Origin: Sedimentisphaerales bacterium
Lineage (GTDB): Bacteria; Planctomycetota; Phycisphaerae; Sedimentisphaerales; Anaerobacaceae
Length of the DNA stretch: 38,533 nt
NCBI GenBank assembly: GCA_016930645.1
Contig: JAFGGH010000011.1
Coordinates: 1 to 38,533, forward strand
Direction of reading: 5' to 3'
Below the pieces are notes generated by a model. The model had not been told where the DNA came from. It was given only the letters and a program-made list of their open reading frames with translations, and ran no database searches. Shown in pieces: positions 31,609 through 36,238 of this stretch. The number at the start of each line of letters is the position of its first letter. Within the stretch, counting starts at the first letter, position 1. The translations under genes were made by a program, and so were the position numbers.

Positions 31609-31652
31609 GAAAAAAGCCTCCCCCGATAAACGGCATCGGGGTCGGAGGCTTA
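31609..31652 (-). terminator. Intrinsic terminator of hsp20
   Basis: On the minus strand AAGCCTCC then CCCCGAT pair with ATCGGGG then GAGGCTT, with a small GA bulge, followed by TTTTTT. It lies about 40 nt after the hsp20 stop codon. Confidence 0.85.
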
Positions 31653-31689: not shown

Positions 31690-32133
31690 TTACTGGCCTT
31701 TTACCTTGATTTTAGTGGTCTTGGCCTTTTCGGCTTTGGGCAGCGTGATTGTCAGCACACCGTTTTTGCAGGCGGCTTCAACCTTCTCACTTTCGACATC
31801 GGTCGGCAGATTTACCTCGCGGCGGAAGCTGCCGTAGCTGCGCTCAATGTGGCAATAGCCTTTTTCCTTCTTTTCTTCTTCGTGCTTCTTTTCGCCGCTG
31901 ATAGCAAGGGTATTGCCGTGCACCGAGATGTCGATGTCTTCGGCGTTGCAGCCCGGCACTTCGGCCTTGACGATAATCTCATTTTCGTTGTCGGCTACAC
32001 CCATCGCAGGCCACACCGCTCTTTCTGTACTCAGTGTCGGCCAGTCGCCGAAAAACGTGCCGAACAAATCATCCATATCCCTGTGTAATCTTGCCAGGTC
32101 ATTTCCTTTTCGTCTTGGACTTAACATAGCCAT
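31690..32133 (-). CDS. Small heat-shock protein, Hsp20/alpha-crystallin family
   Basis: An ATP-independent holdase of 147 residues that keeps unfolding proteins soluble. A short N-terminal arm (about 1-40: RRKGNDLARLHRDMDDLFGT) precedes the alpha-crystallin domain (about 42-140) with VKAEVPGCNAEDIDISVHGN, ERSYGSFRREVNLPTDV and the signature GVLTITLPKAE; a C-terminal KIKVKGQ tail follows. ATG 32133 has AGGAGG 7 nt upstream; the in-frame ATG 32169 overlaps the leader and is rejected. A perfect sigma-54 promoter lies at 32214-32230, so stress control by an enhancer-binding protein is likely. Confidence 0.95.
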   Translation of the reverse strand: MAMLSPRRKGNDLARLHRDMDDLFGTFFGDWPTLSTERAVWPAMGVADNENEIIVKAEVPGCNAEDIDISVHGNTLAISGEKKHEEEKKEKGYCHIERSYGSFRREVNLPTDVESEKVEAACKNGVLTITLPKAEKAKTTKIKVKGQ

Positions 32134-32213
32134 AGTTACACCTCCTTTTTTATTTTTTGTTCCATTCATCTCTTTAAATAATTTTTAATACTTTCTTTTC
32201 CATACAACTAATT

Positions 32214-32230
32214 TGCAAAGTCCGTGCCAA
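32214..32230 (-). promoter_or_regulatory. Sigma-54 promoter of hsp20
   Basis: On the minus strand TTGGCACGGACTTTGCA fits the -24/-12 consensus (YTGGCAC-G-R-NNN-TTGCW) at every fixed position. Transcription would start near 32203, about 70 nt before the hsp20 start codon. Confidence 0.8.
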
Positions 32231-32290
32231 ACGTATTTACCCTGAAAAATCAGGCCAAAAACGCACATTTTAGCCCCCCGAAGCCGCACT

Positions 32291-32328
32291 TTTGACAATC
32301 CAAAACTGCCAATTTGACACCTCCAAAA
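32291..32328 (-). promoter_or_regulatory. Paired upstream repeats, possible enhancer sites for the sigma-54 promoter
   Basis: TTTGACAATCCAAAA (32291-32305) and TTTGACACCTCCAAAA (32313-32328) are direct repeats with a 22-nt step, close to two helical turns. They lie about 75-115 nt upstream of the -24 element, the usual distance for enhancer-binding-protein sites. Confidence 0.5.
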
Positions 32329-32392: not shown

Positions 32393-34219
32393 TTATTTAG
32401 CTATTGTTGTTTTTATCAAAGGGCGCGGCGGCTCTTTCATACCTTCACCCACATAAAAACTGGTATGAGCCGGCTGATTGTAACCCACATTTTGCCACGC
32501 GATACTCAGCCTGTATTGGCGGTCGTGCATAAAGGTATAAAAACGCCTCTCTGTCGATATTGTAGTGGTATAAATACGAAGATACTTGTTATCGCTGGTC
32601 CTGAAGATAACTTCCTCTCGCCAGTCTCCTAAAATATCGGCGCACAGGCAAGGATTGGCCTTGCTTGAATTATTGCTCCGGCAGCCGTCCGCGGAAAACA
32701 ATCTTACCGTTCTGTTATTGGCATAATCCCATTTGGTAATTGTGGTACCATCAAGTAATTCACGCAGCACATCACTATCCCACCAGATACCCATACGGCA
32801 TGAAGATGGTTTGGACTCGGAAATCTTTTCACCCTTGCAGTTGTACAAACCATCGTGGTCACAGTCCAAAGAGGCCCAGCATTCGTAACCTCGATAACGC
32901 GGGTCGATGTCCATAGACAGTCCTCTTCCTACATCTTCGGAGCTCATCCCCCATATAACTTTTCCGGTCGCGGCGTCGCGGAGGTTCGCGGCGTATGGGT
33001 GAGACGGTCTTTCATGGATACCAAAGACCTCCATGCCGGGCTTGTCCGGGTCGATATCCGACAGATGCATAGCATCTCCGTGACCCAGGCCGGCTGAATA
33101 CAGGCCTTTGCCGTTATCGTCAATCGCACAGGCGCCATATACAATTTCATCCTTACCGTCGCCGTCAATATCACTAACGCTTAGATTATGATTGCCCTGC
33201 CCGCTGTAATCACTGTTACCAGGTGTCCCATCTTCGCTGTCAAAAGTCCACAGATGTGACAGCTTTTTGTCTCTGTAATTCCACGCAGCCAGCACTGTAC
33301 GAGTATAGTAACCGCGACACATTACAAGGCTCGGTCGTTGGCCGTCGAGATACGCAACGCACGCCAGAAATCTGTCAACCCTGTTTCCGCTGCTGTCTCC
33401 CCAGCCGCTGCCGTCACCGCCTCGCGGCGGTATATAATCAACTGTAGCAAGAGCGGCACCGGTCAGACCATCGAATATGGTAAGAAACTCAGGCCCTGCC
33501 AGGACAAAGCCGCTATCATTTCGATAGTCAGCGTTTGGGTCGCCGATTACCTTACCTTTTCCGTCGATGGTTCCATCCGCTGTTTTGCAGGCAACTTCAG
33601 CTTTGCCGTCACCATCAAGGTCATATACTATAAACTGAGTATAATGCGCACCTTCGCGGATGTTCTTTCCCAAATCAATCCTCCACAAAAAAGTGCCGTC
33701 AAGCTTATATGCTTCGAGCTTTGTCTGGCCTGTCGTGCCGCTACGCGCATTGTCGCGGGGCCGCTTTTCCTGCTTTAATACAATTTCATACTCACCGTCA
33801 CCATCGATGTCTCCCAAAGATGCATCGTTCGGCCTATAGCCTTCGGGCGTTTGAAGTGGAATCGACAGGTAATTGTGACTCCATACTTTCGCAGGTGGAG
33901 AAGCTTCACCAATCGAACCGTTGATAAAAGCTTTGACAGTATAAACAGAGTTGCCGGTTCCGTTGGCATCTATAAGATTAGTTGATTGCGTTATCGGCTT
34001 GCTGTTAACAAGTGTTCCATCTCTGTAAACATTGAAGGCGATATTATTAGGGTCTGTTCCCAGTATGCGCCATCCCACATAAACACCGCCATCGGGCATA
34101 TCAACCGCGATAAGCCCACGACCCAGCTTTTCCATCTGATACTGCACCTGCTCCCGCCCGGCGGCATTGAAGAAAATTACAAAAAACAAAAATGCAATAA
34201 CTGCAAATTTTCTGCTCAT
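32393..34219 (-). CDS. Secreted rhamnogalacturonan lyase, PL11 family
   Basis: It cleaves the rhamnogalacturonan I backbone of pectin by beta-elimination. It has 608 residues with a signal peptide (about 1-21: FAVIAFLFFVIFFNAAG). A fibronectin-like N-terminal part (EKLGRGLIAVDMPDGGVYVG, FNVYRDGTLV) comes first. The eight-bladed propeller follows with calcium-type Asp boxes: GDIDGDGEYEIVLK, YDLDGDGKAEVACK and SDIDGDGKDEIVYG. Also typical are GAHYTQF, GLGHGDAMHLSDIDP, GNHNLSVSDI and ADILGDWREEVIFR near the end. The enzyme shows that the organism uses plant or algal pectin. No other pectin gene is adjacent; pckG lies upstream. Confidence 0.93.
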   Translation of the reverse strand: MSRKFAVIAFLFFVIFFNAAGREQVQYQMEKLGRGLIAVDMPDGGVYVGWRILGTDPNNIAFNVYRDGTLVNSKPITQSTNLIDANGTGNSVYTVKAFINGSIGEASPPAKVWSHNYLSIPLQTPEGYRPNDASLGDIDGDGEYEIVLKQEKRPRDNARSGTTGQTKLEAYKLDGTFLWRIDLGKNIREGAHYTQFIVYDLDGDGKAEVACKTADGTIDGKGKVIGDPNADYRNDSGFVLAGPEFLTIFDGLTGAALATVDYIPPRGGDGSGWGDSSGNRVDRFLACVAYLDGQRPSLVMCRGYYTRTVLAAWNYRDKKLSHLWTFDSEDGTPGNSDYSGQGNHNLSVSDIDGDGKDEIVYGACAIDDNGKGLYSAGLGHGDAMHLSDIDPDKPGMEVFGIHERPSHPYAANLRDAATGKVIWGMSSEDVGRGLSMDIDPRYRGYECWASLDCDHDGLYNCKGEKISESKPSSCRMGIWWDSDVLRELLDGTTITKWDYANNRTVRLFSADGCRSNNSSKANPCLCADILGDWREEVIFRTSDNKYLRIYTTTISTERRFYTFMHDRQYRLSIAWQNVGYNQPAHTSFYVGEGMKEPPRPLIKTTIAK

Positions 34220-34278: not shown

Positions 34279-36159
34279 TTATGCACTTGTTAAGTCAAAA
34301 GGTGATATGTATTCGCCGTGTTTTTCCTTTGCCGCTTCGAGGCGCCGGCGGACTTCATTGAATGTGTCAAATAATATCTTTGGCGTGTCGTCCACTTTGG
34401 TCTTATAGATTTCCTCGACGCGGTCGAGCTTGGCGAGGTTTTCCGGTACACGAATTGTAAACTCTTTTACATAATCAGCCTGGGTATAATCCTTTTTGAG
34501 TTTATCTTTGAATAGCTTGGCAATATCCTCGTATTTGGGGATACTTCCCGTTGGAGTTTCGACACCTTCAACATCGCCGTTGACTCGCATCTCAGCCCAG
34601 AGCACCCAGACTAATTTGTCCGCCATACCGTTTAGGTACTTGCCGTTTTCATCTCGTAAAAAATAATTTACCGAGAAAATCTTCGGCGGCTTCTTTACAC
34701 CGTTTGCGAAGTTGAGATTATTCTCGATGTACCTGCCTAAAGGAATCGAAACAAATGACAGATTGCTCATCAGGTCAAACTTCCGCACACCGACAACACC
34801 AATCGCCGCAGCGGTTGTCTCCGACTCGATTGATGCCCCCTTTATGATGATGCCTTCAGTCCAGTTGTAAGCTTCCTCGACCGGCACCCATATGTCACTG
34901 TCGCGCCCGCCGTAGAGGATTCCGCCTACCGGTACACCGTTCGGCTCATCCATCATCGGGTCTTTATTTACCAAATCACCAATCCGCACCGTATATCGTG
35001 CGTTCTTGTGCGAAGGAGTAACTTCCTTTCCATCCGGGCCGGTCATACCTTCGGTATATTTGCCTGCATAGTTAGTTCCCTCTTTCGGCAGCTCACAACC
35101 CATACCAAGCCAGTGCGGTTTACCGTCATCGGTTACAAGTACATTGCCGAATATAACCTCACCGGGTGTGGTAATCGCTTCATAAATTACCGGGTCGTCA
35201 TCAGGATTGACATCCTGAATAATTCCAAATATTCCCTGCTCAACATTGACACAGCGCAACCCCCTGTCAATTTTTCTGAGATACGCAATATCATCACCGA
35301 CAATCGTCTGGCCGGGGAGCATCGAAGTTGATGTCTTGCCGCACGCCGATGGAAACGCGCCGGTGAAGTATGTCACCCGACCGCCGGGGCCGTGAACACC
35401 CATAACGAACATGTGCTCGGCAAGCCAGCCTTTCTTGTCGGCTTTGTTGATGGCTAACCGCAATGCGAGTTTTTTCAGGCCGATCGTATTCCCGCCGTAC
35501 TGAGTATTGACGCTATACACAGTCTCATTGTCAAGGTCGATATAAACCCGGCGCTTCTCGACGTTCTTGCTGACGAAATTCTCCAACTCGCCTTCACTGT
35601 GCAGGAACCTGAAAAAATCCTCCGAACCGCCTATACTTTTAAACTGTTCGTATCCCGGTCGATATAAAATCGACTCACTGTGCGCAACATAAGGTGAATC
35701 GGTTATCTGCACGCAAGGGATACTGAAAACCGAATTGACAGGCCCAAGGCACCAGAAGCACACAAGCATCTGCCGGCCTGACATCAAGCCGGAAAGATAA
35801 CCGCGAACTTCGGCAAGCCCATTGTCCCTGTCAATCGAACTGATTCGCTCACCCAAATTCACGCCCGGTCTCAGCAGATATTTCGTAGCGCCAGGGTCGC
35901 GTCCCTGGTCATAATATCCGTCAAAATGAACAGTGTGGCCTTCTATAGCAAGCTGCTTTTCTTCGCTAAGTTCTACAGCCTGCTTTCGTATATACGCCGC
36001 ATCTTCCGCTGAATCGGTCATTACAAACACCGAATCAGGCTGACAAAGTCCAATCGCATCAGCTACGAACTTATGAAGCTTGGGATTAGCCAAAGCCATA
36101 AGTTTATCGTAGTTTTTTCCGGTAACTTTTTCCTTCAGTACCGCGTTTACATCCACCAT
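34279..36159 (-). CDS. pckG: Phosphoenolpyruvate carboxykinase (GTP)
   Basis: It converts oxaloacetate and GTP to PEP and CO2, the entry to gluconeogenesis, or runs the reverse way for fermentation. It has 626 residues, the normal size of the GTP class. Visible are the P-loop FPSACGKTSTSML (about 270-282, with the reactive Cys of GTP enzymes), GDDIAYL, NPDDDPVIYEAI, MDEPNGVPVGGILYGGRDSD and the substrate-site stretch VRGYLSGLMSGRQMLVCFWC. ATG 36159 is used because a promoter fits at 36211-36238 just upstream, so ATG 36219 cannot be the start; AAAGG lies about 12 nt upstream. Confidence 0.95.
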   Translation of the reverse strand: MVDVNAVLKEKVTGKNYDKLMALANPKLHKFVADAIGLCQPDSVFVMTDSAEDAAYIRKQAVELSEEKQLAIEGHTVHFDGYYDQGRDPGATKYLLRPGVNLGERISSIDRDNGLAEVRGYLSGLMSGRQMLVCFWCLGPVNSVFSIPCVQITDSPYVAHSESILYRPGYEQFKSIGGSEDFFRFLHSEGELENFVSKNVEKRRVYIDLDNETVYSVNTQYGGNTIGLKKLALRLAINKADKKGWLAEHMFVMGVHGPGGRVTYFTGAFPSACGKTSTSMLPGQTIVGDDIAYLRKIDRGLRCVNVEQGIFGIIQDVNPDDDPVIYEAITTPGEVIFGNVLVTDDGKPHWLGMGCELPKEGTNYAGKYTEGMTGPDGKEVTPSHKNARYTVRIGDLVNKDPMMDEPNGVPVGGILYGGRDSDIWVPVEEAYNWTEGIIIKGASIESETTAAAIGVVGVRKFDLMSNLSFVSIPLGRYIENNLNFANGVKKPPKIFSVNYFLRDENGKYLNGMADKLVWVLWAEMRVNGDVEGVETPTGSIPKYEDIAKLFKDKLKKDYTQADYVKEFTIRVPENLAKLDRVEEIYKTKVDDTPKILFDTFNEVRRRLEAAKEKHGEYISPFDLTSA

Positions 36160-36210
36160 ATAAACAATTACCTTTAAATAACGGGTTTTCCAGCTATACA
36201 CAGCCTGGGC

Positions 36211-36238
36211 ATTGTACAAAAATAAATTCCCAAATCAA
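36211..36238 (-). promoter_or_regulatory. Sigma-70 type promoter of pckG
   Basis: On the minus strand TTGATT (36238-36233) and TACAAT (36216-36211) are separated by 16 nt. The start near 36204 leaves a 45-nt leader before ATG 36159. Confidence 0.6.

Follow-up and report, generated by a model that had tools for sequence, protein, structure and literature searches.

A sigma-54 element and a conserved upstream palindrome at hsp20 point to a two-component chaperone regulon in Planctomycetota

We analyze a stretch of DNA of 38,533 nucleotides (“the window”) from a Sedimentisphaerales bacterium and find that its hsp20 gene carries a real sigma-54 element, which we follow through related genomes. 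The promoter, a palindrome upstream of it, the spacing between the two, the set of genes that they precede and the conservation of the arrangement can all be read directly in the DNA, and they point to heat-shock control through sigma-54 and one two-component regulator, not through a textbook heat-shock sigma factor. A predicted chaperone regulon under sigma-54 and the palindrome, comprising hsp20, dnaK, groES/groEL, clpB, lon and htpX, very probably spreads through Planctomycetota. We consider it likely that the hsp20 element serves as the promoter for a member of this regulon, with a response regulator that we label P0002-type as its probable activator.

Background

In R. baltica kept at 37 °C, the same set of chaperone genes was induced while transcripts of rpoN, rpoH and rpoE were unchanged, and the authors suggested “a significantly different response cascade” (PMC2754498). 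A 2025 study described sigma-54 promoter enrichment at the GroEL, GroES, IbpA/Hsp20, DnaK, DnaJ and GrpE groups in Planctomycetota and Bacteroidota (PMC12316311). To judge by the accessible part of that study, it predicts sigma-54 promoters at chaperone groups, as we do here, so that such promoters at planctomycete chaperone genes are already reported and not new; it differs in that it presents a statistical enrichment, names in that part neither an activator site nor a cognate activator, and includes Phycisphaerae at a small share only. For the palindrome and its activator we found no prior description. An analysis of the activators of Pirellula sp. strain 1, reportedly published by Studholme and Dixon in 2004, may overlap with ours.

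Results

An exact sigma-54 element precedes hsp20

The hsp20 gene lies on the reverse strand at positions 31,690 to 32,133 and encodes a small heat-shock protein of 147 aa; the gene call of the first-pass annotation is borne out by its translation and by a match to PF00011 (E 7e-26). A ribosome-binding site, GGAGGT, can be read at 32,140 to 32,145, 6 nt before the ATG at 32,133, and 80 nt separate this ATG from the element TTGGCACGGACTTTGCA (32,214 to 32,230, reverse strand), which is the distance originally given. As had also been claimed, the element fits the consensus exactly: it is the one exact match to YTGGCACRN4TTGCW in the window, where 100 dinucleotide shuffles give a mean of 0.01. 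Once two mismatches are allowed, the window holds no more sigma-54 matches than expected by chance, so the evidential value of the hsp20 element lies in its exactness. It has the TGGCAC-N5-TTGC form, with GG at -24 and GC at -12 at the fixed spacing, and the GG and GC are invariant across 25 aligned promoters. By sigma-54 geometry, transcription would start at about 32,203 (reverse strand), some 12 nt past the GC of the element, and a consensus scan predicts a terminator-like stem-loop 3' of the gene at 31,621 to 31,641 on the same strand. The neighboring genes, for a rhamnogalacturonan lyase (family 11; 32,393 to 34,219) and a GTP-type PEP carboxykinase (34,279 to 36,219), have no stress role.

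Our statements about the source genome as a whole come from pattern searches and fetched stretches. By these means, TGGCACN5TTGCW was found at 8 strict sites, compared with 0 for the reversed pattern. The rpoN gene, whose absence was to have counted against the promoter, is present on contig C48 (PF04552, E 1.7e-57). For comparison across relatives, we used the sigma-54 elements to align the DNA that precedes hsp20 in other members of its family and order, of which 28 have readable upstream DNA. A strong element is found before hsp20 in 24 of these, 74–176 nt upstream of the match start, and is absent in the other 4.

A palindrome at a conserved distance upstream

The palindrome TGTCAAATTGGCAG (32,306 to 32,319, reverse strand), a putative upstream activator site, lies at -90 relative to the sigma-54 element and is the sole match in the window to the consensus TGYCAWWWTGRCA. 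With up to two positions off, this consensus occurs in 23 of the 24 relatives that have the element, at -86 to -91 or, in 4 of the 23, at -77 to -79, and the two position classes differ by about one helical turn. A conserved position around -90 is what is expected of an activator site acting at looping distance, and conservation and spacing give strong support to the sigma-54 promoter with an upstream activator site that had been proposed for hsp20. A degenerate, putative second site, TGTCAAAAGTGCG (32,285 to 32,297, reverse strand), lies 22 nt downstream of the main palindrome and has a similar copy in two relatives (L043, L049); about six other relatives have a second palindrome copy 20–21 nt upstream of the main one.

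The first-pass annotation had drawn this region as two direct TTTGACA-n-TCCAAAA repeats. A conserved site is indeed present; its unit is the palindrome, not the repeat. The two repeats read TTTGACA-A-TCCAAAA (32,292 to 32,306) and TTTGACA-CC-TCCAAAA (32,313 to 32,328), with unequal spacers of 1 and 2 nt, and they measure 62–98 nt upstream of the element rather than the 75–115 nt claimed. Relatives show no conservation of the TCCAAAA half, and the suggested genome scan for further pairs returned no other copy. TGTCAAATTGGCAG covers one repeat's TTTGACA half together with the stretch that separates the repeats; what had been seen was the palindrome plus a half-site, with the unit drawn wrongly.

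Beyond the palindrome, roughly 100–150 nt upstream of the element, relatives L033, L042, L047, L048, L050 and L051 share a further block of conservation, which reads roughly TTGTNG-N17-TANACT on the opposite strand; it could be a divergent promoter and is absent from the window.

The site heads chaperone and protease genes

We searched the 89 family genomes with a family pattern, the palindrome followed by 55–85 nt and a sigma-54 element; it matched 56 times, in 43 of the genomes, and the reversed pattern did not match at all. Besides the hsp20 subfamily of the window, the targets are htpX, dnaK, clpB, further hsp20 genes, one HNH-AP2 gene and one unassigned gene. Across the phylum, we found the combination in 75 of the 392 planctomycete genomes searched and the reversed control in none; the gap limit is part of the reason why this share is small. 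Sixty-eight of the 71 phylum sites inspected head hsp20, dnaK, groES/groEL, clpB-family or lon genes or operons, with identities assigned from similarity to reference proteins and from reading of the translations; no recognizable heat-shock gene lies behind one family match (L105) and three phylum matches (L200, L221, L232).

An HNH-AP2 gene, which is homing-endonuclease-like, stands behind a palindrome and a sigma-54 element in genome G000 (contig C83, L024 4548–5436; palindrome at -124) and in G102 (contig C38, L094). At L219 and L220 (family f67), the gene that directly follows the heat-shock promoter, ahead of groES-groEL, is small (~130 aa) and receiver-like; we considered it as a regulator targeted by the site and set this aside, as it opens the groES-groEL operon.

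A stricter pattern applied to 84,980 species returned at least 80 loci. Among the matches listed, 59 of 80 have a gene for a chaperone or a quality-control protease directly downstream, and among those listed in records with planctomycete titles a heat-shock gene directly follows in 47 of 49. Nine further heat-shock-gene loci among the matches listed come from records titled as Bacteroidota groups, Kiritimatiellota, Poribacteria, Delongbacteria or Longimicrobiales. By a rough estimate, about 10 random matches are expected in a scan of this size, which fits the matches in other groups that lack a heat-shock gene.

dnaK genes fetched independently of the pattern

We fetched dnaK by protein similarity, leaving the pattern unused, from 30 family genomes, mostly ones that the pattern had missed. 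A strong sigma-54 element precedes all 27 readable dnaK genes, and the palindrome precedes 24 of them, nearly always as TGCCAAAATGGCA; as at the 68 phylum sites, a common site thus stands before genes of the kind that define a heat-shock regulon. The palindrome lies at -99 to -135, mostly at -110 to -115, and the family pattern missed these sites because its gap limit excludes that range. We therefore rejected a genuine absence of the site from many family genomes, which is largely an artifact of the pattern. The dnaK gene of the source genome has CTGGCACAGCTTTTGCG with TGCCAAAATGGCAT at -111. When the distinct spacings of hsp20 and dnaK palindromes are pooled, they fall in steps of ~11–12 bp, and 1 of 2000 random sets was as periodic; with related genomes and a fitted period, this helical periodicity is suggestive. 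Directly before dnaK in G000 (contig C48, L460 838–4617) lie genes that by eye are mcsA/mcsB-like (protein arginine kinase).

A candidate activator

Sigma-54 promoters require an AAA+ activator, and the window holds no sigma-54 activator, as had been stated. We found seven convincing ones in the source genome. The P0002-type regulator is a protein of ~458 aa with a receiver (PF00072), a sigma-54 AAA+ domain (PF00158) with GAFTGA and a Fis-type helix-turn-helix (PF02954), i.e., an NtrC-type group I activator, and in the family its gene usually lies behind pnp and a short histidine kinase gene that encodes no sensor domain. Each of the 32 family genomes with a completeness of 90% or more and a contamination of 5% or less has a single copy; as it is universal in good genomes, its presence can show no correlation with that of the site. 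Among three well-assembled genomes whose activators were compared (G010, G011, G029), it is the sole activator class in common, and in G478 (98% complete), which has a palindrome site at clpB, it is the only sigma-54 activator found. It was further found in G498, G353, G062, G065, G067, G069, G182 and G329. The P0002-type proteins group in a single clade (support 0.99), and their recognition helix, GERTLYRK, does not vary. The regulator is missing from the source assembly, which is 78% complete and may simply have a gap there, and also from nine other incomplete genomes that carry the site. On balance, we favor the P0002-type regulator as the activator of the chaperone regulon. A purely eliminative argument makes it the likely protein to bind TGYCAWWWTGRCA, and its candidate target sequences are TGCCAAATTGACA and TGCCAAAATGGCA.

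Several other candidates were tried and rejected. Of the 89 family genomes, 54 have a true orthologue (at least 65% identity) of the NtrC-type response regulator on contig C29 of the source genome, but three site-bearing genera have none, so that it does not serve as a universal activator; the PspF-like activator is missing from site-bearing genomes, e.g., G010, whose activator list is complete; and the GAF-type activator is missing from G011 and G029, whose lists are also complete. Nor did we find a convincing palindrome for activator autoregulation beside the activator loci.

Two further observations concern activator genes of G000. At L029 (3138–7925, contig C23), a short sigma-54 activator with no recognizable GAFTGA lies downstream of Hsp70-like, TerB-like and unassigned genes. 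Contigs C27 (L022) and C59 (L021) each hold a GAF-domain sigma-54 activator gene, behind which come a sigma-54 promoter and two genes named, by eye, as those of a putative outer-membrane protein and a putative ammonium transporter.

Discussion

The arrangement suggests a classical mode of control. Sigma-54 RNA polymerase would be held closed on the -24/-12 element until proteotoxic stress leads to activation of the P0002-type regulator, encoded in the pnp–histidine kinase–regulator operon, presumably by phosphorylation. The activated regulator would bind TGYCAWWWTGRCA through its Fis-type helix-turn-helix, contact the polymerase by DNA looping from a preferred helix face, and open the promoter with ATP, upon which hsp20, dnaK, groES/groEL, clpB, lon and htpX would rise jointly. 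Here, we infer heat as the signal, the binding to DNA, the phosphorylation and the identity of the regulator.

The most serious competitor, which we regard as unlikely, keeps the sigma-54 chaperone regulon and assigns it, in the source lineage, to another activator: the PspF-like one on contig C98, the NtrC-type regulator on contig C29 or the activator on contig C23. These three are in the source assembly, where the P0002-type regulator is not, and the C23 activator gene clusters with an Hsp70-family gene, downstream of which it lies. However, C29-type orthologues are missing in three site-bearing genera, the PspF-like activator is missing from G010, whose dnaK has the palindrome site, G478 has the P0002-type only, and a motif scan finds no recognizable GAFTGA motif in the C23 protein. 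We give considerably less weight to a reading that makes the palindrome the site of a repressor or some other general factor and has the sigma-54 promoter respond to a non-heat signal, e.g., oxidative stress or nutrient limitation. Many stresses do trigger a chaperone response, but a palindrome that precedes the -24 box by 64–122 nt, at distances that step with the helix, suits an enhancer rather than an operator, and the targets together make up the classical heat set, which is heat-induced in R. baltica (PMC2754498).

Equally improbable is control by HrcA/CIRCE, by sigma-32-type promoters or by an RNA thermometer, with the sigma-54 element secondary. Although rpoH is annotated in R. baltica (PMC2754498), no CIRCE-like repeat (TTAGCACTC-N9-GAGTGCTAA) occurs within 3 mismatches in any fetched locus, and no sigma-32/sigma-70 -35/-10 hexamers were found in the hsp20 intergenic region by a TTGACA/TATAAT consensus scan, the reach of which ends short of diverged promoters. 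The hsp20 leader is unstructured (folding z-score +0.85) and has no Rfam match, and so lacks the structured, site-hiding leader of ROSE or fourU thermometers. That the hsp20 element is a chance match, as the two-mismatch count in the window might suggest, can be given almost no credence: its exactness, its deep conservation and the 8 strict genome sites against 0 reversed all argue otherwise. We thus retain sigma-54 control with the P0002-type regulator as the preferred reading.

Several known systems resemble parts of this one. The E. coli ibpB gene is said to have a sigma-54 promoter (“third regulon of heat-shock response”). The parallel that the first-pass annotation drew with ibpB holds insofar as a small heat-shock gene has a sigma-54 promoter in both; it does not hold as an isolated case, since the planctomycete hsp20 appears to be one member of a phylum-wide chaperone regulon. 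In E. coli the sigma-54 promoter is an extra, beside sigma-32, whereas in the present system all of the chaperone genes in the set have the element in front of them, and our scan at hsp20 turned up no promoter of the sigma-70 type. The chlamydial chaperone operon (hrcA-grpE-dnaK), from a related superphylum, likewise combines sigma-54 with one two-component activator, AtoC; its main heat control, however, is HrcA/CIRCE. The solved NtrC-family group I activators (4l4u, 1ny5, ZraR 1ojl) share with the P0002-type a receiver, AAA+ domain and Fis-type helix-turn-helix, from which the P0002-type differs in its own clade, its own recognition helix and its proposed chaperone targets. The architecture is therefore classical, and what appears to be new is the wiring of a whole chaperone set through a defined site and a candidate regulator.

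Among the matches listed in the wide scan, single records of Bacteroidota, Kiritimatiellota, Poribacteria, Delongbacteria and Longimicrobiales have the palindrome and element before chaperone genes. On this basis, we tentatively raise a possibility to which we give somewhat less than even weight: a heat-shock regulon of sigma-54 and a two-component system may be the ancestral chaperone control of Planctomycetota, perhaps of the wider PVC/FCB groups, with the sigma-54 promoter of the chlamydial hrcA-grpE-dnaK operon as a remnant.

For the planctomycetes, a sigma-54 regulon with one activator would explain the R. baltica pattern (PMC2754498), in which unchanged rpoH, rpoE and rpoN transcripts are to be expected if control lies in the activator. 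Our analysis supplies concrete objects to work with: a site of 13 bp, a rule for its spacing, a list of target genes and a single candidate for the regulator. If the reading is true, a core stress response that is nearly universal can be placed under a sigma factor that depends on enhancers.
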